The notes under the pieces are model-generated. The model saw only the letters and a program-made list of their open reading frames with translations. It was not told the DNA's origin and did not search any database. Both the position numbers and the translations under genes were made by a program. DNA of 64,000 nucleotides from Sphingobium sp. (GTDB lineage: Bacteria > Pseudomonadota > Alphaproteobacteria > Sphingomonadales > Sphingomonadaceae): contig JAGIAZ010000001.1 in the NCBI GenBank assembly GCA_017744605.1, positions 248,001 through 312,000 of the forward strand, given 5' to 3'. Below, piece by piece: positions 8,777-44,124 of the stretch. The first letter of the stretch is position 1. Each line of letters opens with the position of its first letter.

Positions 8777-10078
8777 TTGGGCAGACAGATGAGAGCGAAA
8801 ACGATGGCTGGAGGGATTCATAAATTGAAGCCACGCCGCCTAGAGGCGACGAAGGAGCCCGGCTGGTACGGCGACGGAGGAGGGCTCTGGCTCAGGGTCT
8901 TCAAAGACGGATCGAAGCGATGGATCTACGTCTGGACTAAAGAAAAAAAACGGCGCGAAATGGGGCTGGGCTCCTTTCGCGAAATCACCCTCGCCGAAGC
9001 ACGCGAACAGGCAGGAGCCGCAAGGCGATTGCAGAAAGAAGGGCTCGACCCAATCGAGCTCAGACGCGAGGCGCTAGAGGAAGAAAAGGCAGAAGAGATC
9101 AGCAAGGAAGAAGCAGAAACCCCGCCTGTCGTGCCGACATTCCTCGAATATGCAAAGATCTATATCGCTGCCCACGAAGAAGGCTGGACCAGCGAGAAAC
9201 ATCGGTGGCAGTGGAATAATTCGATCACAAAACATGCCGAGTCACTGCTCGCAAAGCCGGTCAACCACATAACCGCTGACGACTTAGTCGACGTATTGAG
9301 ACCTATCTGGAACGTGATCGCCGATACCGCCGGTCGACTTCGCGCCAGGATCGAACTCATTCTTGATGCGGCGAAAGCGGCGGGTCACATTCAAAGCCCA
9401 TGGGAAAATCCGGCACGCTGGGAAGGCAACCTTATTCATCGCCTTCCTAAACGGAAGCGGCTTGCCACCGGCCATTATCCGGCCATGCCTTACGAAGACC
9501 TGCCAGACTTCTTTGTAGCGCTCCGACAACGCCCTGCCCCAGCGGCTCGCGCGCTCGAATTAACAATTCTCTGTGCCACCCGGACGAACGAGACGCTGGG
9601 GATGAAATGGAAAGAGGTGAACCTGAAGACCGGGATTTGGACAGTACCCGCGGACCGCATGAAAATGCGTATCGAGCACCGAATTCCATTATCGCAGGCT
9701 GCCATCAACGTGTTACAGATCATGCGTCTAAATAGAGAGATAAATCCCGATAATTTCGTATTTCCAGGACAGAAAAAGGGAAAACCCCTATCTCAGATGT
9801 CGATGACAATGGTTATGCGGCGCATGAAACTTGGGCATTTTACGGTGCATGGCATGCGCAGCTCATTTCGCGACTATATGGGCGACATGACCGTCCATGA
9901 GGAAGCCGTCATCGAACATGCCCTTGCGCATCAGTATGGAGATTCCACGGCTCGAGCTTATCGACGGAAGAATGCTTTCGAGAAGCGAAAATTCGTCATG
10001 ATTGATTGGGCCGAATACCTTCTTAGTGCCGAATCACAGATCGATGGGCAGGCGGAAGGTGCAAAGAAGGCCGCGTAA
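8777..10078 (+). CDS. Tyrosine-type integrase (P4/DUF4102-like N-terminus)
   Basis: WYGDGGGLWLRVFKDGSKRWIY...LGSFREITLAEAREQA N-terminus; C-terminal HGMRSSFRDYMGD...HALAHQYGDSTARAYRR. Confidence 0.92.
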   Translation: MGRQMRAKTMAGGIHKLKPRRLEATKEPGWYGDGGGLWLRVFKDGSKRWIYVWTKEKKRREMGLGSFREITLAEAREQAGAARRLQKEGLDPIELRREALEEEKAEEISKEEAETPPVVPTFLEYAKIYIAAHEEGWTSEKHRWQWNNSITKHAESLLAKPVNHITADDLVDVLRPIWNVIADTAGRLRARIELILDAAKAAGHIQSPWENPARWEGNLIHRLPKRKRLATGHYPAMPYEDLPDFFVALRQRPAPAARALELTILCATRTNETLGMKWKEVNLKTGIWTVPADRMKMRIEHRIPLSQAAINVLQIMRLNREINPDNFVFPGQKKGKPLSQMSMTMVMRRMKLGHFTVHGMRSSFRDYMGDMTVHEEAVIEHALAHQYGDSTARAYRRKNAFEKRKFVMIDWAEYLLSAESQIDGQAEGAKKAA

Positions 10079-10987: not shown

Positions 10988-11625
10988 AGCGACATGCCTC
11001 TGATCATGATCGCGCCGCCGTGAATTAGGGCAAGCAATCTTTCGCCGGAAATGATTTCGATATGGTCATGCCGTTCCACAAGTGCGCGAGTAGTCGGCCC
11101 TGTTCGTCCGGTATGAATGAACAGTCCAGACACCTTTCGCGCGCGGCAGAGAGCAGCGAATGCGTCGACATGCTCGGGACGAATGGAGGTAGCATAGCGT
11201 TTCGCCTGGATGAGCCAGGTCTGGCCCTGAATAACGACCTGACCGTCCAAGCCTCCATCACCAGTGTACCGGGTGTTGCGGACGACCTTGCAGCCTCTGC
11301 GTTCGAAGCACTCCAGAAGAAGCTCTTCGAAGGCAAGCGGATCCATACCCCGTAATCGGGCAAAGACGAAGCCTGGAGGCTGATCCCGATCTCGCCCCGA
11401 CAATTGCCTGTTCATAGTCCGGGCTTGTCGGCGCCGCCATCTATGACTGGCTGGCCCTCTCATCCGACGGGCGAGCAAGCCAATCAATATCAGCGCTATA
11501 ACGAATATCCATAGATGGGAGTGTCCGCCCCCGCCGACACCGGATTTAGCCGCCGCCGGATCGACGGCCGCCATCCCGATGGCAAACAGCAAGACGGCCC
11601 TGCGGAGAACCTTATTATCGGTCAT
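10984..11625 (-). CDS. Membrane-anchored Mrr-like restriction endonuclease domain protein
   Basis: N-terminal hydrophobic segments (LWIFVIALILIGLLARR); MDPLAFEELLLECFERRGCKVV...GDGGLDGQVVIQGQTWLIQAKRY matches the Mrr (D/E-Q)xK nuclease pattern. Start set at MTDNK; ORF opens at 11700. Confidence 0.8.
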   Translation of the reverse strand: MTDNKVLRRAVLLFAIGMAAVDPAAAKSGVGGGGHSHLWIFVIALILIGLLARRMRGPASHRWRRRQARTMNRQLSGRDRDQPPGFVFARLRGMDPLAFEELLLECFERRGCKVVRNTRYTGDGGLDGQVVIQGQTWLIQAKRYATSIRPEHVDAFAALCRARKVSGLFIHTGRTGPTTRALVERHDHIEIISGERLLALIHGGAIMIRGMSL

Positions 11626-14581
11626 GCTCGCCTCCGTGATTTTGGGCGTGACCGTGCGCCGGCTCGGCGGCGGGTTGCTGGGTCGGGGCAGCCCGCTCAT
11701 GCTCCTCGTTGCCCGATCGGCTTCGATCGAGCATCGAGACGATCCACTGGTCTATCGATCGAGCTGCCGACTGAGCACGACCGGCAAGCAGTGTTGCGAA
11801 ATCCCTGGGTGGCGGCTCTATTTTCGGCTCAAGCCTTTTGGCCAATCGCTCTTTTCGAGCCTGTCGCTCCGTGCGCTGCTCCTCACGCAACCGGTCCCAA
11901 CGCTCGCCGTGTCGAGCCCATCGGCCGTTCACGCTGTCGCGATCGACGCGACCGAGCCCTTCGAGCGACGATGTCTTCACCCCCGACTTCTGGGTTAGCT
12001 TCTCAGCAAGGCGCTCCAGATTTTCTGTCCAGAGGCTGACACCAAATTGTGCGCGCGTGATGGCCGTGTAATAATTTTGGCCAGTGACCAACAGCGAATT
12101 TATCGGCGCAAGCAGATAGACCCAGTCGTAGGTCTTCGATTGAGCGGAATAGACGGTCTCACTGTAGCCGTAATCCCAATTCTTATGACGGGCGAGATCA
12201 ACCTCCTGAACCTTCCCGCCACGGTCCCAGCGAATGGTCGCAACGTAGCCATCAAGATGCTCTACCGTGCCGCGCTCGGCATTTTTGATACCCAATTCAT
12301 TATTGACGAGCCGCCACTGAATGCGATCGCCAGTAGCAATGTCACGTTTTTCTTCCTTGAAAACGTTGATTTGGGAAGCCTTTCCGAGACGGGGGTCCCA
12401 ACGGATCGTCCGCCCATTTTCGTCGACAAGGTTAACCACCTGTCGCCCCCGCGCGTCGCGCGCGATGCCAACAACCTTGTATTCGGCATCGCGCGCGATG
12501 CCGAGGCCGACATTATCGCGCGAGAAGACCACGACCTGCCCCTGGGAGTAGAACCGCGCGAAATGTTTCTCCTGGTCGGTCATGCCTGACGGAGCGAGAA
12601 TCGACAGCCTGGCCTCTTCCGCCGCGATCGCGCCCTCAGTCTTGAGAACGTCGCGTATCTTGCTGTTGACGATGAGGCGTGTGGCATTCTCCAGGACGAG
12701 GATGTTGGTCTTCGCGCGCTGCTCCGGCTCCAGCAGGGTCCAATCCTTCACCAGCATCTCGGCGAGCTTGTCGCTGCTGGCGCCGCTTGTGACTTTGTCC
12801 AGAGCACCGATGGAAGGAGCGTAGTTCTGCCTGCGTGCGAGAGTAACCGCCTTCGCGAGTTCGTCGCTCTTCTGTCGGATCGGTTCGCGCAGTTCCGCTT
12901 TCGACATGCCCAGGCGCATCATCAGCCAAAAGGGCTTCCCCTGCTCGAGCGCACCAGTCTGAAGGGTGTCGCCCAAGAGGAAAAGTCGCGCACCGGTGGC
13001 GCGGCTGATCTCGAGCAATCGGATAGCCTGGCGGTTCCCCAGCTGCCCGGCTTCATCGACGACAAGGACATGGCGATCGTCGAGCTTCGCTCCACCGGCA
13101 GCGAGCAGACTGGCGACCGTGCGCGATTCAATCGCGGCTTTCACCCCCAATTCGGCCGCCGCCGATGAGGTCGGCGCTAGGGCGATCAGTTCAGCATCCT
13201 TGCCGGCTGCCTCACGGAGCGCACCCACGATCGTCGATTTACCGGAACCCGCGACACCATAGACCGCAACCACCCGATCACTGGTTCGACCGAGATGAAA
13301 AAGAGCCGTCCGCTGGTCGCGTGTCAGTTTATGCGCAAGGCCCGCTTCGCGTATCGCTTCGATTGACGCAAGCGGCTTGGCATCATCGATCGCCAACGCA
13401 AGATGATCGGACAAAGCGATTTCCAGGCGCGCGGTCCGATAGGTAGTCCGCCCGCGGGTATGGATCTCATCACCTGTCCGGTGCCTCGTCTCAAGAAGCT
13501 TGAAGCGGGCTTGATGTGCCTCAAGCAACGGTCGAACATCGGCCAGTCGCACCTCGCCAACGTGAGAGGCCAGCCCTACCTGGATGAACCGACCGAGATT
13601 GTTGACGGCCTCCTTTCCCTCGGATTGCCGGAGCCCAAAGAGCGTCGCCCGAGCTGCGATTTGGTCAGAAACCTCGATGTGACGCTCTCCCGCTTTTTCG
13701 GCTGCGGCTAAAGCTTCATGCACAGCCCTGGCATGAATCCCGAGCCGCTCTTCCCAACCCCGATGGAGATCCTCGGCCGAAACCTTTTCCTTGGGCCCCC
13801 GGGTTTCATAGAAGGAGATGCGGCGCGCGGCCTGACCGGTCAGGCCATGCTCGCGCGCATGTGCCTCGATCTGTTCGGCTCGCTGGGACAGCTCCGTGAT
13901 GAGTTCCCGTGGAACACCGCGGATTTCGAAGAGCCCCCTCCGGGGGTCAAACTCTACTTCATAGCCTCGCTCGCGCAGGAGATGGGCCAATTCGTTGCGA
14001 TAGATCTGCCCTGCGACCATCTGCTCGGCATACATTGCCCGGGATTCGAGGCTGACGAATCGGGCGCCATCACGCTCGTTGCTGATGTTCATGACGACTA
14101 CGTGCGTATGAAGATGCGGGTCGAGCTCGCGCGATGCATGTTCCGTGAAACGGGCGAAGACGAGCCGACCCGTCGTCTTTTCGACAACCTCACCATTGAC
14201 GCGGTGACGCATCGAAGCATGTTCTTCCAGATAAGAAAGCGCGACCGTGACCGCCTGTTCATGGGCGCGCGCAATCCGATCGTCACCTGCAACGAGCGCC
14301 ATGATCGATACCGATTTCGGAGCATTGACGGCGAAGTCCCATCCCGGATGGTGCTGGATATCACCGTCAGCGCGCCGACGGCCGAGCTGTTGACCGTCGA
14401 CTTTGCCAGCCAGCAAATCCTCGAAGACAGCCGTATCGACCTTTCCTTCGAGACCGAGTTCGGCAGCGATTTTGCCGCCCCATTCCGAATGCTCGTCGGC
14501 GCCTTTGGTGTAATAATCTCCTACGGTATAATAGCGGGCGATGTTGGCGGGTTTGCCCTTCAGGCGGCGAGGATGGATCAT
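11615..14581 (-). CDS. traI: MobF-family relaxase/helicase (TrwC/TraI-like)
   Basis: HHPGWDFAVNAPKSVSIMAL, HLHTHVVVMN metal triad, helicase Walker A GVAGSGKSTI; 988 aa. Confidence 0.95.
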   Translation of the reverse strand: MIHPRRLKGKPANIARYYTVGDYYTKGADEHSEWGGKIAAELGLEGKVDTAVFEDLLAGKVDGQQLGRRRADGDIQHHPGWDFAVNAPKSVSIMALVAGDDRIARAHEQAVTVALSYLEEHASMRHRVNGEVVEKTTGRLVFARFTEHASRELDPHLHTHVVVMNISNERDGARFVSLESRAMYAEQMVAGQIYRNELAHLLRERGYEVEFDPRRGLFEIRGVPRELITELSQRAEQIEAHAREHGLTGQAARRISFYETRGPKEKVSAEDLHRGWEERLGIHARAVHEALAAAEKAGERHIEVSDQIAARATLFGLRQSEGKEAVNNLGRFIQVGLASHVGEVRLADVRPLLEAHQARFKLLETRHRTGDEIHTRGRTTYRTARLEIALSDHLALAIDDAKPLASIEAIREAGLAHKLTRDQRTALFHLGRTSDRVVAVYGVAGSGKSTIVGALREAAGKDAELIALAPTSSAAAELGVKAAIESRTVASLLAAGGAKLDDRHVLVVDEAGQLGNRQAIRLLEISRATGARLFLLGDTLQTGALEQGKPFWLMMRLGMSKAELREPIRQKSDELAKAVTLARRQNYAPSIGALDKVTSGASSDKLAEMLVKDWTLLEPEQRAKTNILVLENATRLIVNSKIRDVLKTEGAIAAEEARLSILAPSGMTDQEKHFARFYSQGQVVVFSRDNVGLGIARDAEYKVVGIARDARGRQVVNLVDENGRTIRWDPRLGKASQINVFKEEKRDIATGDRIQWRLVNNELGIKNAERGTVEHLDGYVATIRWDRGGKVQEVDLARHKNWDYGYSETVYSAQSKTYDWVYLLAPINSLLVTGQNYYTAITRAQFGVSLWTENLERLAEKLTQKSGVKTSSLEGLGRVDRDSVNGRWARHGERWDRLREEQRTERQARKERLAKRLEPKIEPPPRDFATLLAGRAQSAARSIDQWIVSMLDRSRSGNEEHERAAPTQQPAAEPAHGHAQNHGGEHDR

Positions 14582-16602
14582 GCCGGCCTCGCCACGTCAC
14601 GAGCGCCGTCCCGTCGGCCATGTTGCCGCAACCGGAACTCCGGCGCTTTTCCGAACAGGACGAGTTCGGGAATCTCCCTCGGTGTCTCATCCGGCTCTGA
14701 TGGTGGCGATGGCGGTGCTGTTGTCGGGGGTTCGCTCTCCGTCGGCAAATCCGCCTTCGGTTTGACGGGTTCGAATTCAAGAAGAGGCAGACTGAGTTCT
14801 TTGGGGGGCTTCGGCTTGCTCGGCTTTACCCGCTTCAGGGGCTGGACCGTGGCGGGCGGTAATACCGCCTGGTCAAGCCGTAGGGGAGGCGTTGAACGCT
14901 CCTCATATGCGTTACTGACTGCCGGAACCTGGTTGTAGCTATCCTCAAAGCGAACCACGGGCAGGTTGCGGCCAAAGCGAAGATAGCCGGACAGATTGGG
15001 AAGGTTCGTGACTTCGGTGTGCAGGACCAACGGTCGCGTCACCTGCATGCGGGAGAGGTTCACCCCGTCCCGCATATCGTTGACACCGTAGCTCATCCCC
15101 TCGTTCGCCTCGACCTGCTCGACTTGGCCGAGATTTTCCGAAACATGCTTGGCGGTGGGGGTGTCGTTGGCGCGCAGCGCTACCCAGGTGGAGCAATAGC
15201 CGGTGATGGCGGCGGCATCCTGGATACCGTAGGTCGCTTCCAACTGCGGGTAGCTCTGGAAACCCAATATGCCGCAGCCTCCGTATTTCCGCGCACGGGC
15301 AAGGAAGTCGGAGAGCGATGGCAGTTTCTGCAGGGTCGGCAGTTCGTCGATGACGCAATAGAGCCGACGGGTCCGGTCGGGAACCATGCTCATGATCGCG
15401 CTGATGGCGATGTCGAGCCAGACGGTAATAAGCGGCCGAAGGGAGGGAAGCTGGTCAGCCTTCACCGTGATGAACAGCCAGCTATCGTCCTTCTCATTGG
15501 CGACCCAATCGCGGATGGAGAGGCCGTCCTCGGTGTCATCCAGATAGGAGAAGCTGCGCATCACCGAAGCGAGTTCCGCCTGGATACCTGCCGAGGTTCG
15601 CTCGCCCTCGGTCGAGATGAAAGCGGCGGCGTCGGTGCCCGCGGCAAATGTCGCAAGGTCCTGCAGCTTCGATCGAAGCAGGGTATCGAGTAGGACCGAT
15701 ACGAGGGTCCGTTCTTGACCCGCCAGTTTGCGCAACACAGCTACCAGGGTGCCGCGCGCGGCTTTCGCCCAGAACGGATCGCCACCCTTTTCTGGGATCG
15801 TGGATTCCGCGATCTGGTCATAGTGATAATCGCGGGGCACATCGACCCAAGGCGACCAGATATCGGATCGACGATCCAACGGGTTCAGGAGAACGTCGAT
15901 TCCAGGCCGATAAAATTTCTCAACGAAGGTGCCGGCGGTATCGTACACGATCGCGCGGCGCTTCCGCTTGCGGATGCCGTCGAGCATCTTGACGATCATG
16001 TTGGTCTTGCCCGTGCCGGGGGCGCCGCAGATCAGAATATGCTCCGGCTCGTAGGCATCTGGTACATTGACGCCACCGATATCGAAGCTGCCGCGCCGTT
16101 GACGCCAGAGCAACCGGCGCACCTGGCGAGCGGTGCCGAAGCGCGCGCCGCGCAGGAACTGGTTTGATCCGAGCCCCTTTCCGGTTCGGGTGAAATAAAA
16201 CCAGGCCCAGAAGAGCATCGCGAGGGCGAAGATTCCGGAGAGTGCGGCGCCATGCAGGAGGTAGGTCTCGAAGGCACGGAGCGTCCTATGGGCGAGGCCC
16301 GATGCCAGGAGATCCTTGGGGCTGATCCAGTAGGTTTGCCCGCCGGGTGTCTTGAAGAAGATCGGCGTAGCGTTGCCAGGAACAGCATCCCCCATGACGC
16401 TCGCCTGAGCAAGCTTCACGAGGACGAAGCGCTCATAGTCGGTCGACTTTTCGAACGCATACCAGACGATACCGCCGATCCAGATTACAAGCCCTGCGAG
16501 GAAGGTCTGGTAGAAGACCTGTGTCGTCATCCGGACATTGTGGACGATCGCCTGGCCGCCCCGCGTCCAGGAGCCGAGCGTGTCGTGGCGGAAGATGCTC
16601 AT
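14578..16602 (-). CDS. traD: Type IV secretion coupling protein (TraD/TrwB-like)
   Basis: N-terminal TM segments; Walker A ICGAPGTGKTNMIVKML; RLYCVIDELPTLQKLPSLSDFLARARKYGGCGILGFQSYPQLEATYG. Confidence 0.94.
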   Translation of the reverse strand: MSIFRHDTLGSWTRGGQAIVHNVRMTTQVFYQTFLAGLVIWIGGIVWYAFEKSTDYERFVLVKLAQASVMGDAVPGNATPIFFKTPGGQTYWISPKDLLASGLAHRTLRAFETYLLHGAALSGIFALAMLFWAWFYFTRTGKGLGSNQFLRGARFGTARQVRRLLWRQRRGSFDIGGVNVPDAYEPEHILICGAPGTGKTNMIVKMLDGIRKRKRRAIVYDTAGTFVEKFYRPGIDVLLNPLDRRSDIWSPWVDVPRDYHYDQIAESTIPEKGGDPFWAKAARGTLVAVLRKLAGQERTLVSVLLDTLLRSKLQDLATFAAGTDAAAFISTEGERTSAGIQAELASVMRSFSYLDDTEDGLSIRDWVANEKDDSWLFITVKADQLPSLRPLITVWLDIAISAIMSMVPDRTRRLYCVIDELPTLQKLPSLSDFLARARKYGGCGILGFQSYPQLEATYGIQDAAAITGYCSTWVALRANDTPTAKHVSENLGQVEQVEANEGMSYGVNDMRDGVNLSRMQVTRPLVLHTEVTNLPNLSGYLRFGRNLPVVRFEDSYNQVPAVSNAYEERSTPPLRLDQAVLPPATVQPLKRVKPSKPKPPKELSLPLLEFEPVKPKADLPTESEPPTTAPPSPPSEPDETPREIPELVLFGKAPEFRLRQHGRRDGARDVARPA

Positions 16603-16901
16603 GCGCGGTCCTGCTCGGGATCGAGCAGCCCCCTGTCGCGGAGCAAACGGCGAGCTTCGGACAGTCCCTTTTGGAGGATATCAGGAGATCGCTCGCCTAC
16701 CGACGTGGCGAGGATTGCGAAGGCCTGGATAGCCGTCGCGTGGAGCTCGTCGAAGCGAGCATGATAGCCCGACGGGTCCGTCCCTTCGAACCGATCAAGG
16801 ATGTCTCGACAATAGGTCGCAAGGCCGAGACCGGCACTGCGCGACTGGACGGTGAGGCGCGCATAGAGGTCGTCATCTATGCGGATCGTAATACGTGCCA
16901 A
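16599..16901 (-). CDS. Ribbon-helix-helix-type relaxosome accessory protein candidate
   Basis: MARITIRIDDDLYARLTVQSRSAGLGLATYCRDIL; 4-nt overlap with coupling-protein gene. Confidence 0.65.
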   Translation of the reverse strand: MARITIRIDDDLYARLTVQSRSAGLGLATYCRDILDRFEGTDPSGYHARFDELHATAIQAFAILATSVGERSPDILQKGLSEARRLLRDRGLLDPEQDRA

Positions 16902-16991
16902 GCGGCGGACTCCTTGTCCGACACGCCTGGAACGTGATGAAGCGATGTCTTGATAGCAGCATTTTCTAGCGATCTCAAGAATTTATCGAAA

Positions 16992-17087
16992 CTGCCGGTG
17001 GCAGCCACTAAGTGCCAAACAAGATCAGATGGTTGGTAGGAAAGAGATAGTGGGCTGGCTGCCACTGGCAGTCACTTAGTGCCAAAC
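16992..17087. promoter_or_regulatory. Candidate oriT / relaxosome binding region
   Basis: Direct repeats TGGCAGCCACTAAGTGCCAAAC (16999-17020) and TGGCAGTCACTTAGTGCCAAAC (17066-17087), each with CACTnAGTG and CTGCC..GGCAG palindromes, in the gap upstream of the mobilisation genes. Confidence 0.5.
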
Positions 17088-17351
17088 CGACTGCCATGTT
17101 GTGCCATCGGAAAGGCGCAGAAATCCGCCAAATTCGCGCCCGCAGCACCCGTGCGTACGGTGCATTCCCTCCGCCTCCGGCGTGCGTCACCTCTCCGCAG
17201 CGCCCCGCGCGCTGCGCCTGCCCTCGCTCGGCATGGCGGGTCATCGCTGTGCCGGGGCCTTGGGTGCTGATCGTCCGTAGGCTGGATGGGCGATGCCATT
17301 GCATTATGCGACCCCTTTGCGGATAATGATCGGCGGCGGGCAGGCCATCCC

Positions 17352-17806: not shown

Positions 17807-19000
17807 TTAGTAATAGGCTTCCTCAACGGGCAGCACATCGGGGAGAATCTCGCGCTGCCACCTAATCGGCTTCTTAGGGTAGCCCTTCGGGACCTTCGGC
17901 CTGTCATCCGGTGCCTGATCGGCGCGCAAGAATAAATGAGTCGGAACGCGCCGCCCGCTCTCCGGGTTAAGCAGGTCATAAAGGTGGGACTGAATGCCGG
18001 ACCCCTCGCACAACACGGCTTCAACCGGCATGATCTTGGCGACCAATTCGCGATTGCGTTTGAAGGCACGTCCGTTGCCCCTGCCATAGAGGCCATAATT
18101 GACGCACGGCACACCTTCCTTGTCGGCCCATGCCGAAGCAATCGCGGGAACACCCATGCTGCCCCCGGTGGATACCAGAATCATATGCGGGATACGCTGC
18201 TTGATCTGGCTAAGCCGGGCAAAAATGATTCTCCAATCGTGCCAGTCGAAGGGGCCGGAAATGAGGACGCAAGGGCCTTGCGGATCATATTGTTCCCGGC
18301 GCTTTTCGGCACGGGCGCGCAGAAAGTCGAGTGCGTTAATCTGGCTCGCGCTCGTAACCTCGCTTGCCTTTGATCCCTTCGACGGCGACCATGCACGCCC
18401 GAAACAGGCACGATACATCGCCGCCATATAGTCACGCATTGCCTCAAACGCAGCGCGCTGTTCGGCAAGCGATTGGCATTCAAGCTGCTTATCCTCAAGC
18501 TTCTTGTTGAACACCTCACCCGGCTCCATCCGGCGCGCCATGTCGCCGATTTGGTCGGCAAGCCGATCCTCCTCGCGCTGCAATTTGCCCGCGACGAAAT
18601 GCGGGCTGTTGACGAAGCCCCACGCCATTTCCGGGGCCAGATGCTCAAGGCGGGTATTGGTCAACAGGTCGCAAATGGCAGCGATGATCCCGCCGCATTC
18701 CGCCTGTGCGGCGAATGGTTCGGGCATATAATATTCGCCCGGTTCGTCGCCATGCTCGATGATGGTAAGCGGCAAAGGATCGCCAAAGGATGCCTCAAAG
18801 GCCGGTGTGACGATAAGCGCCGCCTGATCCCTGCGAAGGTCGCCGCGCGTGATGGCGGAGCCTTCGCCTTCCTGCATATGCTCGATTTCGGCGGTCATAT
18901 CATCGCTGTCGTCGGGCAGGTGGTCGGGAAGTCGCGCGTAGAGTTTCGGCAGGTCCGCAAAGCTGCTAATGGCGGCGGAGGCCGGTTGTTTGTTGCTCAT
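17807..19000 (-). CDS. DUF2493 (SLOG-like) domain protein
   Basis: CVLISGPFDWHDWRIIFARLSQIKQRIPHMILVSTGGSMGVPAIASAWADKEGVPCVNYGLYGRGNGRAFKRNRELV. Confidence 0.75.
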   Translation of the reverse strand: MSNKQPASAAISSFADLPKLYARLPDHLPDDSDDMTAEIEHMQEGEGSAITRGDLRRDQAALIVTPAFEASFGDPLPLTIIEHGDEPGEYYMPEPFAAQAECGGIIAAICDLLTNTRLEHLAPEMAWGFVNSPHFVAGKLQREEDRLADQIGDMARRMEPGEVFNKKLEDKQLECQSLAEQRAAFEAMRDYMAAMYRACFGRAWSPSKGSKASEVTSASQINALDFLRARAEKRREQYDPQGPCVLISGPFDWHDWRIIFARLSQIKQRIPHMILVSTGGSMGVPAIASAWADKEGVPCVNYGLYGRGNGRAFKRNRELVAKIMPVEAVLCEGSGIQSHLYDLLNPESGRRVPTHLFLRADQAPDDRPKVPKGYPKKPIRWQREILPDVLPVEEAYY

Positions 19001-19084: not shown

Positions 19085-19606
19085 TTAGAAGGGCACGTCA
19101 TCGTCAAGCTGACGCCCGCCGCCGACATATTCGCCGCCAGCCCCTGCGGTGCTGCCTCCGGCAAACCCCCCGGAAGATCGGCCGGAGAAACCGCCATTCT
19201 GGCGCTGGCCACCGCGCTGGAAATTGCCCCCGCGCTGATTGCCGTTCCCGCTGTTCGATTGCGGGGCGTTGCGCCGCCATTGCACCTCATAACCGGCTGT
19301 TTGATTGCCGAAGAAAGCCATTTGCTTTTCGTCGCCCGCATGGTGGTCATCGACGAAGCCCGCGAGGTAGGGGGTTCCATCCGCCATCGGTCGTTCCCAG
19401 AGGGAGCCGATAGGTGCAAGCTGACCTGCCATATTGTATGCTTTAAGCTCGCAAATCGGCCAGCGTTCAGACCGCTTATCCTCCGGGATGAAATGCATTT
19501 CGACGTAATCGTAATTCATGGTGAAAGTTCTGACATAGCCAGTCGGCAAGCCAACCTCATCATTATACTTAAATTCACCTACCAACATTTCACCTACTCC
19601 AATCAA
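19085..19606 (-). CDS. DUF736-like protein with Gly-rich linker and SSB-like acidic tip
   Basis: DUF736-like core (ICELKAYNMAGQLAPIGSLWERPMADGTPYLAGFVDD) followed by GGNFQRGGQRQNGGFSGRSSGG and C-terminal QLDDDVPF. Start set at ORF start. Confidence 0.6.
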   Translation of the reverse strand: MIGVGEMLVGEFKYNDEVGLPTGYVRTFTMNYDYVEMHFIPEDKRSERWPICELKAYNMAGQLAPIGSLWERPMADGTPYLAGFVDDHHAGDEKQMAFFGNQTAGYEVQWRRNAPQSNSGNGNQRGGNFQRGGQRQNGGFSGRSSGGFAGGSTAGAGGEYVGGGRQLDDDVPF

Positions 19607-19721
19607 ATTGCGCTTGGGAGCTATTTCCCTCCCGCAATTACTTTCTACCCCCTCCCCTCCATTTTTACCATTTCATTGTCTTATTGACAGAATTTCATCG
19701 CATCTGGTGAGCCTGAGCCAA

Positions 19722-19775
19722 TAAAAATGGCCGCGGTAGCGGCCCCTCAAAAAAACGCATGCCGAAGGCATTCCA
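19722..19775 (-). terminator. Tandem intrinsic terminators
   Basis: Minus strand: atgccTTCGgcatgcgTTTTTTT then ggccgc-tacc-gcggccaTTTTTatt. Confidence 0.7.
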
Positions 19776-19807
19776 TCTTGATCGATGCTGGACGGACCAG
19801 TGGGTGT

Positions 19808-20064
19808 CGTTCATCGCATCCGGAGCCGCCTTCGCCGTGGCTCAAGGGGCAGGCGCGGCCGTCGTGGGCAACAGAAATGACGGAGGCTCCGCCGCGCAGC
19901 GGTGGAAACCGTAGGGCCGCTTGCGGCCCGGTATTTCTGTTGAGGTGCCTTCCTGACAAACAAACGCATTGGCCGCTCGCGGCCAATACATTTTTGGCAC
20001 CGACCACGGCGGCCGGGTCTGCCACGCAGAGACACTGCGAAGGCGGCTCCGGATGCGATGAACG
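19808..20064. repeat. 28-bp perfect inverted repeat, ~201-bp spacer
   Basis: cgttcatcgcatccggagccgccttcgc / gcgaaggcggctccggatgcgatgaacg. Confidence 0.9.
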
Positions 20065-20288
20065 ACGGCGTGCGGCATCGATGGCGGGCCGAGGCGTCCC
20101 GCCGAGGACCGCCATGGCGCGACCTCTCGGTATCGCGAAGACGGTGCCCCAAGCGCCGCGAAAGGGATCGTTACCGCGTCAGCGGGCAAGACCCCGAAGG
20201 GGGCTTGATCGGAGCGCAGCGGAGATAGAGCCCGGTGCCCGCCTTGGCGGGCATTCGCCCTACCCCTTTCCTTGCCGGGGCGTCTTAC

Positions 20289-20498
20289 TCAATCGCCGGT
20301 TGATCCGATCCAGAGCAATTCGAGGGATCCCGGTCCGCGTCGAAACCCCTCGATCTGCACCTGCTGATCGCAGCGATCACCAAGATCATCGCTGGTTTCG
20401 AGACGCCAGACGGGGCCATCCTCGGTTTCGAGGACGGGGCCACGCTCCCCGATCCGGAGCGTGCCGCGCAACCGCAACGGCAGACCATTGGTGCTCAT
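20289..20498 (-). CDS. Small protein, DUF5818-like
   Basis: MSTNGLPLRLRGTLRIGERGPVLETEDGPVWRLETSDDLGDRCDQQVQIEGFRRGPGSLELLWIGSTGD. Confidence 0.55.
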   Translation of the reverse strand: MSTNGLPLRLRGTLRIGERGPVLETEDGPVWRLETSDDLGDRCDQQVQIEGFRRGPGSLELLWIGSTGD

Positions 20499-42901: not shown

Positions 42902-43837
42902 TCAGGCCGCCTTCCGCACCCCCCAACCCACTCCCTCCCCTCCATTTGCCGCCGCCGTAGGCTGATCCCGCAGCAGGTCGTTCCAATCATTGAAACCTGA
43001 TCCGGGCAGCACCGGCTCGATCGTCCGGTCCGGCCGCGCGTGCGCCTCCATCGCCTTGGCCGCACCGATTTCGCCGGCGAGGTCATCGTCGTGGAGAATA
43101 AAGAGGTGATTGACGGAATCGGGGATGGCGACGTGTGGAAAGCGCTCGCTGCCAAGGCAGGCCCAGACCGGGAATCCGAGCAGCAGATAGGCCGACCAGG
43201 CGGTCTCCCAGCCTTCTGCAAGGCCCAGCGTATCGCTCGCCATACCGAAGCGCACGGCGCCATCGAGCGGATAGCCGAACATGCGCTTGGGCGGGCGAAG
43301 ATCCGCGGCCGGCAGTCCGGTGACTGGATCGAGGAACAGCCGCTCGACCGCGATGACGCGCTCGCCGCTGCGCACGGCGGCCAGCACCGCCGGACGGAAG
43401 CGGACGGCCCGGCCTTTGCCGAGCGGCGTGCGCGGGTGATAGCGCAGGTTCTGCGGGTTGCCGATCAGCCCCCGGCCCCGCGCATAGATCATGCCGGGGC
43501 TGCGCGCGAAGGACACCGCACCGTCCCAGAGTTCCGATACGCGGGCTTGTGTCCATTCCCGGCTGGATTGTCTGGCTGGCGCGGCATCCCCCTGTTGGGA
43601 TGGGATATCGAGACGGAGCCGGCGGATCGCGCGCAGCACGTCGATCGTGTCGCAGCCCGCGAAGCATTTGAACAGCAGGCTGCGGTCTCCGACCCGGACG
43701 GACAGGCTGGGGGTGCGGTCGTTATGGACGGGGCATAGACACATGCCCGTGGCCCGCTCCCTGGACCAATGACCACCGAGGCGTTTGACGATATCGGCCC
43801 CCGCGTTTTCGAGTGCGAGATCGATTGATTGGGACAT
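42902..43837 (-). CDS. Toprim/zinc-finger primase-like protein
   Basis: CLCPVHNDRTPSLSV...CFAGCDTIDVLRAI zinc-finger-like; C-terminal NHLFILHDDDLAGEIGAAKAMEAHA Toprim-like. Start MSQSIDLALENAG. Confidence 0.8.
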   Translation of the reverse strand: MSQSIDLALENAGADIVKRLGGHWSRERATGMCLCPVHNDRTPSLSVRVGDRSLLFKCFAGCDTIDVLRAIRRLRLDIPSQQGDAAPARQSSREWTQARVSELWDGAVSFARSPGMIYARGRGLIGNPQNLRYHPRTPLGKGRAVRFRPAVLAAVRSGERVIAVERLFLDPVTGLPAADLRPPKRMFGYPLDGAVRFGMASDTLGLAEGWETAWSAYLLLGFPVWACLGSERFPHVAIPDSVNHLFILHDDDLAGEIGAAKAMEAHARPDRTIEPVLPGSGFNDWNDLLRDQPTAAANGGEGVGWGVRKAA

Positions 43838-44124
43838 GGCGGATTTTCCTCCCGCCGCGCGTTTCGTCCCTGGCCTACGGTCGTGATGAACATTGCCGTG
43901 GTCGGTCCCGATGGACGCGACCGACGCATGTGCAGGATCGGGGCAGGAAGGAAATGACGGCGTTGTGCGGGGATGGGTTGCCCTAGCGAGATGGCTGATC
44001 GGGATGGGCGAGCGCCGCGCTACCGACGGCACAGCGATTGCCCGCTGATCGAGGCGCGGGGCGAGAATGAGGGCGCATTGCGCGGGGCGAAGGATGGAGC
44101 TCGCCGCGATCAACCACTCAGAGA

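Follow-up and report, generated by a model that had tools for sequence, protein, structure and literature searches.

A folded element preceding DUF736 genes in sphingomonad conjugation modules, with features of a single-stranded DNA control site

Introduction

A non-coding stretch of approximately 600 nt in a mobile element of sphingomonad bacteria is densely packed with inverted repeats, and the question it raises is what folds there: an RNA, or one strand of the DNA itself, and if the latter, which strand and to what end. The stretch lies within a 64-kb piece of DNA that was analysed as a whole and is called the window below. A first-pass annotation, made from the sequence, had proposed a structured RNA of the minus strand, and an origin or ssDNA-folding element as the alternative.

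The element and its fold

Pfam matches confirm the two genes, of the DUF5818 and DUF736 types, between which the structured region (19589-20288) had been placed (Table 1). The core of this region is a rod. Its perfect outer stem had been described as 28 bp (19808-19835/20037-20064); the stem is present, its actual length being 30 bp (19806-19835/20037-20066), and it lies within a 38-nt pair that is 95% complementary. The inner stem, the two GGCCG-CTYG-CGGCC hairpins and the hairpin of the outer flank were all found where they had been annotated. The outer flank shares 84-90% identity with its relatives over about 100 nt. Part of it, the block GGAGATAGAGCCCGG...CTTGCC with its hairpins (window 20140-20252), also occurs without the rod and is a separate module; such rod-less copies are found on S. 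paucimobilis plasmids, where SprT-like/ParA genes follow, and near the end of pHMP9.

The region folds beyond chance, with z-scores of -9.7 for the minus strand and -6.8 for the plus strand against 20 dinucleotide shuffles. When 425 windows were scanned across the 64 kb, the extreme outlier was the 300-nt window at 19801 (plus-strand z -8.15), and the next best fold, in the window at 16801, had a z of -2.88. With the extreme fold of the whole stretch, and with stems that its relatives conserve, the region deserves its description as an ornate structured non-coding element. The Rfam scan that had been suggested as a check returned no family at either gathering or permissive thresholds, and the 11 plasmid records with a match to the element carry no annotated feature beneath it.

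Table 1. Features of the element and of the neighbouring conjugation module (window coordinates).
Feature	Position	Strand	Basis or remark
MobF relaxase (TrwC family)	11615..14581	-	Pfam PF08751
Type IV coupling protein (TrwB family)	14578..16602	-	Pfam PF10412
Small ribbon-helix-helix (RHH) gene, TrwA-like by position	16599..16901	-	weak RHH match below curated cut-off; synteny
Putative oriT, repeats TGGCAGTC..GACTGCCA	16930..17110	.	upstream of RHH gene; R388 analogy
YAcAr/SLOG-family (DUF2493) gene	17807..19000	-	Pfam PF10686
DUF736 gene	19085..19588	-	Pfam PF05284
Near-invariant block GGCTCAGGCTCACCAGATGCGATGAAATTCTGTCAATAAGACAATG	19673..19719	-	two sub-blocks, variable spacing
Linker hairpin GGCCGC(GGTA)GCGGCC	19729..19744	+	on minus strand, terminator-like hairpin
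Linker hairpin ATGCC(GAA)GGCAT	19759..19771	+	on minus strand, terminator-like hairpin with T7 tail
Rod	19806..20066	+	30-bp outer stem around 200 nt of further stems
Type A inner arm CAACAGAAAT ... ATTTCTGTTG	19869..19942	+	alignments A1-A4
Hairpin GGGCCG(CTTG)CGGCCC	19914..19929	+	loop class gCNNGc, stable-DNA
Hairpin ATTGGCCG(CTCG)CGGCCAAT	19968..19987	+	preceded by ACAAACAAAC tract
Outer flank	20073..20288	+	conserved block GGGATCGTTACCGCGTCAGCGGG ... GGAGATAGAGCCCGG with hairpins
Flank hairpin TGCCCGC-CTTG-GCGGGCA (arms TGCCCGCC/GGCGGGCA)	~20236-20254	+	
DUF5818 gene	20289-20498	-	Pfam

Relatives and distribution

A distant blastn search of 72,556 plasmids, F included, gave matches in sphingomonad plasmids only; enterobacterial plasmids showed no BLAST similarity to the element. 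The seven best plasmid records have the element upstream of DUF736, as checked in six of them, where a DUF2493/SLOG gene comes next. Within the family, 22 of 401 genomes contain a match. The exact pattern of the near-invariant block matched 66 contig stretches in a set of 85,462 species and was not found in the viral set. Two of these, in a Spirochaeta MAG and in Flavobacterium, neither with DUF736, were taken as chance matches; the remainder are titled sphingomonads or unclassified proteobacterial MAGs. The pooled loci comprise 63 distinct copies. With these two and one copy that has only 224 nt downstream left out, a DUF736 gene is present in 60 of 60, its start lying 102-166 nt past that of the block, and a SLOG gene lies downstream of the block in 53. 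The element was found only in Sphingomonadales.

All copy types share the outer stem and the linker hairpins and differ in the inner arm. In type A, to which the window belongs, the sequence of this arm is highly conserved among copies, while in type B it is replaced by long palindromes of different sequence. The decayed end of an IS or MITE, which the annotation had allowed for, was ruled out because every checkable copy (60/60) occupies the same place before DUF736, with no dispersal to unrelated sites.

The near-invariant block repeats part of the outer stem arm in direct orientation (CCNGATGCGATGAA), and the spacing between its two parts varies from 15 to 17 nt. Many copies have a duplex-type -10 box (TATAAG-like) before DUF736, with the block upstream of that box, so that DUF736 may have an ordinary regulated promoter; the block is likely to be a regulator's binding site. 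A search of both strands for -35/-10 pairs found none conserved except this weak duplex-type -10, and the rod has no conserved strong pair as scored with E. coli-like weights, which may not be those of sphingomonads. An R388-like nic word, ATTGTCT, noticed by eye in the block, was rejected because it is not conserved in relatives.

Selection and the folded strand

The structure of the element is under selection. Compensatory double changes occur in 26 of 88, 41 of 108 and 31 of 88 pairs in three alignments, in keeping with the compensated hairpins that had been noticed at the outset.

To see which strand is selected, 59 copies were folded with Watson-Crick pairs only, which is strand-neutral, and the mismatches interrupting the stems were then read, counting single mismatches with at least three flanking pairs on both sides. 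On the DUF736-sense (minus) strand there are 98 A.C mismatches versus 4 G.T, counts that overstate independence since the copies are related by descent; the ratio is 65:3 in 40 non-redundant copies (93% identity filter) and 47:4 by unique context. On the plus strand the same A.C mismatches become G.T wobbles. Composition predicts a ratio of about 0.8, and shuffled sequences gave 85:85. The alignment columns, read on the plus strand, contain 40 G.T and 16 A.C, which agrees in direction and is weaker. With DNA parameters, the plus strand has the more stable fold in 59/59 copies.

The terminal loops have the same polarity. On the plus strand they include 42 of class C(GNA)G and 37 of class C(GNNA)G, while the mirror classes are absent (79:0), and 78 of the 108 loops of the linker hairpins are C(G..A)G, again with no mirror. 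The g(CTTG)c loop, which occurs 16 times, is of the same class on either strand. Among the GNNA loops of the listed types the third base is a pyrimidine in 28, with GCAA in 5, so most of them are not of the GNRA type known from RNA. In DNA, triloops of the GNA class have exceptional stability. The motifs d(cGNNAg) and d(gCNNGc) are reported to have come out of a selection for stable DNA tetraloops (Nakano 2002, cited in PMC5090098). Because the loops fall in DNA-type classes and the GNNA loops are mostly not GNRA, folded DNA is preferred over RNA. Wobble polarity, DNA energies and loop classes together place the selected structure on the plus strand, and the distinction between ssDNA and RNA rests on the loop preferences and the missing promoter and terminator signals.

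The conjugation module and the transferred strand

The element heads a module of one orientation, in the order element, DUF736, SLOG, oriT-like repeats, RHH, T4CP and MobF. Order and orientation agree in the window, in pIBU218, in pSfKp5.2 and in all loci with enough DNA, where a coupling protein (16/16) and MobF (7/7) follow downstream in the same orientation; in pIBU218 and its relatives an SSB gene lies further downstream. A tyrosine integrase is encoded at 8777-10078, adjoining the MobF/T4CP operon (11615-16602), which suggests that the window module is an integrated conjugative element.

The inverted repeats upstream of the RHH gene differ in sequence between relatives; with that position and the second strongest fold of the window, they were taken as the putative oriT. 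R388 has its oriT region between two divergent operons, one with the mob genes and the other entering the recipient first, the leading operon (PMC3098194), and relaxases are typically located in the lagging region (PMC11541004). Given an R388-type arrangement of operons, a relaxase on the lagging side and the putative oriT, the window plus strand is likely, by synteny with R388, to be the transferred strand, which would put the element in the leading region.

Comparison with known single-strand elements

The Frpo1 and Frpo2 regions of plasmid F lie before ygeA and ssb, respectively, genes that point to oriT (PMC9849209, PMC11541004). Refolded here, both form rods of >300 nt with the lower energy on the transferred strand, with -101.2 versus -89.8 kcal/mol for Frpo1 and -98.7 versus -90.9 kcal/mol for Frpo2. 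The sphingomonad element resembles them as a rod upstream of putative leading-region genes that would point to oriT, with a bias to what is probably the transferred strand. It differs in several respects: no sequence kinship was detected in the blastn search of plasmids that included F; Frpo is defined by a -35/-10 pair in a hairpin, and none is recognizable in the sphingomonad rod; the loops are mostly GNA/GNNA, which were not seen in F; and the fold is far stronger (z -8 versus -3 for F). Our hypothesis therefore likens the element to Frpo and ssi by analogy and does not class it as a member of either.

The ssiA and ssiB sites of RSF1010 are primase-dependent single-strand initiation sites of about 40 nt that bind RepB'. 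They too are strand-specific ssDNA hairpins near plasmid transfer/replication genes, whereas the present element measures approximately 400-600 nt and is tied to DUF736. Integron attC sites are likewise folded, structure-conserved and strand-specific ssDNA; unlike them, the element has no cassette array or integron integrase context and is fixed before DUF736.

Proposed function and alternatives

We think it probable that the element is a folded single-stranded DNA on the transferred strand, situated in the leading region of a MobF-type module and acting like Frpo/ssi. What is observed is a conserved and covarying structure, the strand on which it is selected, its loops of DNA type and its unvarying place before DUF736; the annotation's alternative of an origin or ssDNA-folding element is the one that strand polarity, stability and loops favour. 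Recruitment of RNA polymerase or primase and early expression we infer from the likeness to Frpo. The transferred strand would enter the recipient from oriT at approximately 17 kb, and the rod and its side hairpins would fold on the entering single strand. The folded DNA might then recruit RNA polymerase (or primase), allowing DUF736, SLOG and other oriT-proximal genes, for which the transferred strand is the template, to be expressed before conversion to duplex; it might also, or instead, prime the complementary strand for that conversion.

If only the last of these roles were real, the folded transferred strand would be where a primase, of the plasmid or of the host, lands to start the complementary strand, and it would not drive expression. 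The structure, the strand and the probable leading-region position all fit, as do the repeated units of A/C-rich tract plus hairpin, and the gene cluster also encodes a DnaG-like CHC2/Toprim/DUF7146 protein of its own (42902-44113). We nevertheless judge priming as the sole function unlikely, for it would not account for DUF736 following so strictly in all copies checked.

A structured non-coding RNA of the plus strand, transcribed away from DUF736, would have the same polarity of stem mismatches, and the block does carry an invariant TTGACA on that strand. However, the sequence 15-17 nt after it is GGTGAGC, which is no -10; no terminator-like site was found at the far end of the element; most loops are GNA triloops or GNYA, not GNRA; and Rfam has no match. 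Only the loop type and the failure to find a plausible -10 or terminator speak against such an RNA, which we regard as quite improbable.

The large inverted repeats beside conjugation genes and the strand-specific structure might also be expected of oriT itself, or of a second nick or termination site. This is very doubtful: the examined copies have DUF736 and SLOG genes separating the element from the mob operon, the R388 operons diverge from the region that contains oriT (PMC3098194), and the module has a separate repeat-rich region upstream of the RHH gene. Least credible, and strongly disfavoured, is the minus-strand leader or small RNA ending in tandem terminators that was first proposed: both terminator-like hairpins are present in the window and at least one is found in 44/60 relatives, but two occur in only 17/60, the stem mismatches on that strand are A.C and not G.T, that strand is the less stable in every copy folded, and the loops are of ssDNA type on the other.

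The DUF736 product

If the folded transferred strand does act like Frpo/ssi, DUF736 is indicated as an early establishment factor. The window protein ends in LDDDVPF, like the C-terminal tip of SSB, and an acidic tip resembling SSB tails is present in 32 of the 57 DUF736 proteins behind the element. In many DUF736 proteins a glycine-rich linker is followed by such a tip (LDDDVPF, LDDEVPF). The predicted structure has a confident, all-beta core; a PDB search with it gave no significant match, so the acidic tail is the one feature from which the SSB-like label comes, and an SSB role, suggested by sequence, is no more than a lead. Scanning for proteins with a DUF736 pattern also gave no match.

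A second, smaller element and wider occurrence

Expression of the leading region from ssDNA is established mainly in F-like and related enterobacterial plasmids, and Frpo elsewhere has been catalogued largely through similarity to known Frpo sequences (PMC11541004, PMC12826799). Catalogues of this type would miss the sphingomonad element, and the literature searched contains no paper naming Frpo along with Alphaproteobacteria.

In other Alphaproteobacteria no big rod stands before the DUF736 genes (best z -2.7). These genes are often preceded by a 58-nt motif of two stems on the gene-antisense strand, for example at 1911-1968 of L138 and 1912-1969 of L121, among loci L111-L160. Its stems covary, with a score of 0.534 versus 0.184 in shuffles. 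With a covariance model the motif was recovered from 23 of the 289 genomes searched in the class, the genomes from which the model was made included, often in several copies, and Rfam contains no match at the gathering threshold. The motif precedes DUF736, SLOG and, in one case, ArdC genes. On the gene-antisense strand 14 of its 17 loops belong to the C(GNA)G or C(GNNA)G class; the stem wobbles (5 A.C and 4 G.T) are too few for a strand call. Just upstream of 28 such DUF736 genes, C(G..A)G loops number 11 antisense and 3 sense, against 1 and 2, respectively, in a distal control. The motif is absent from the window and from the sphingomonad rod loci, and it is unrelated to the rod, with similar loops.

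With slightly more doubt than belief, we propose that conjugative elements of Alphaproteobacteria carry at least two unrelated folded-ssDNA control elements, the rod and the 58-nt hairpin, which would be independent of Frpo, have GNA-type DNA loops and serve the expression of anti-defence/establishment genes from the entering strand. If the reading of the rod as an Frpo/ssi-like element is right, zygotic control from ssDNA would reach a large class of plasmids and ICEs from the environment, and wobble polarity combined with DNA loop motifs would be a means of recognizing functional folded ssDNA in genome sequences. The window's own genome carries the 58-nt motif on another contig (G000:C44).
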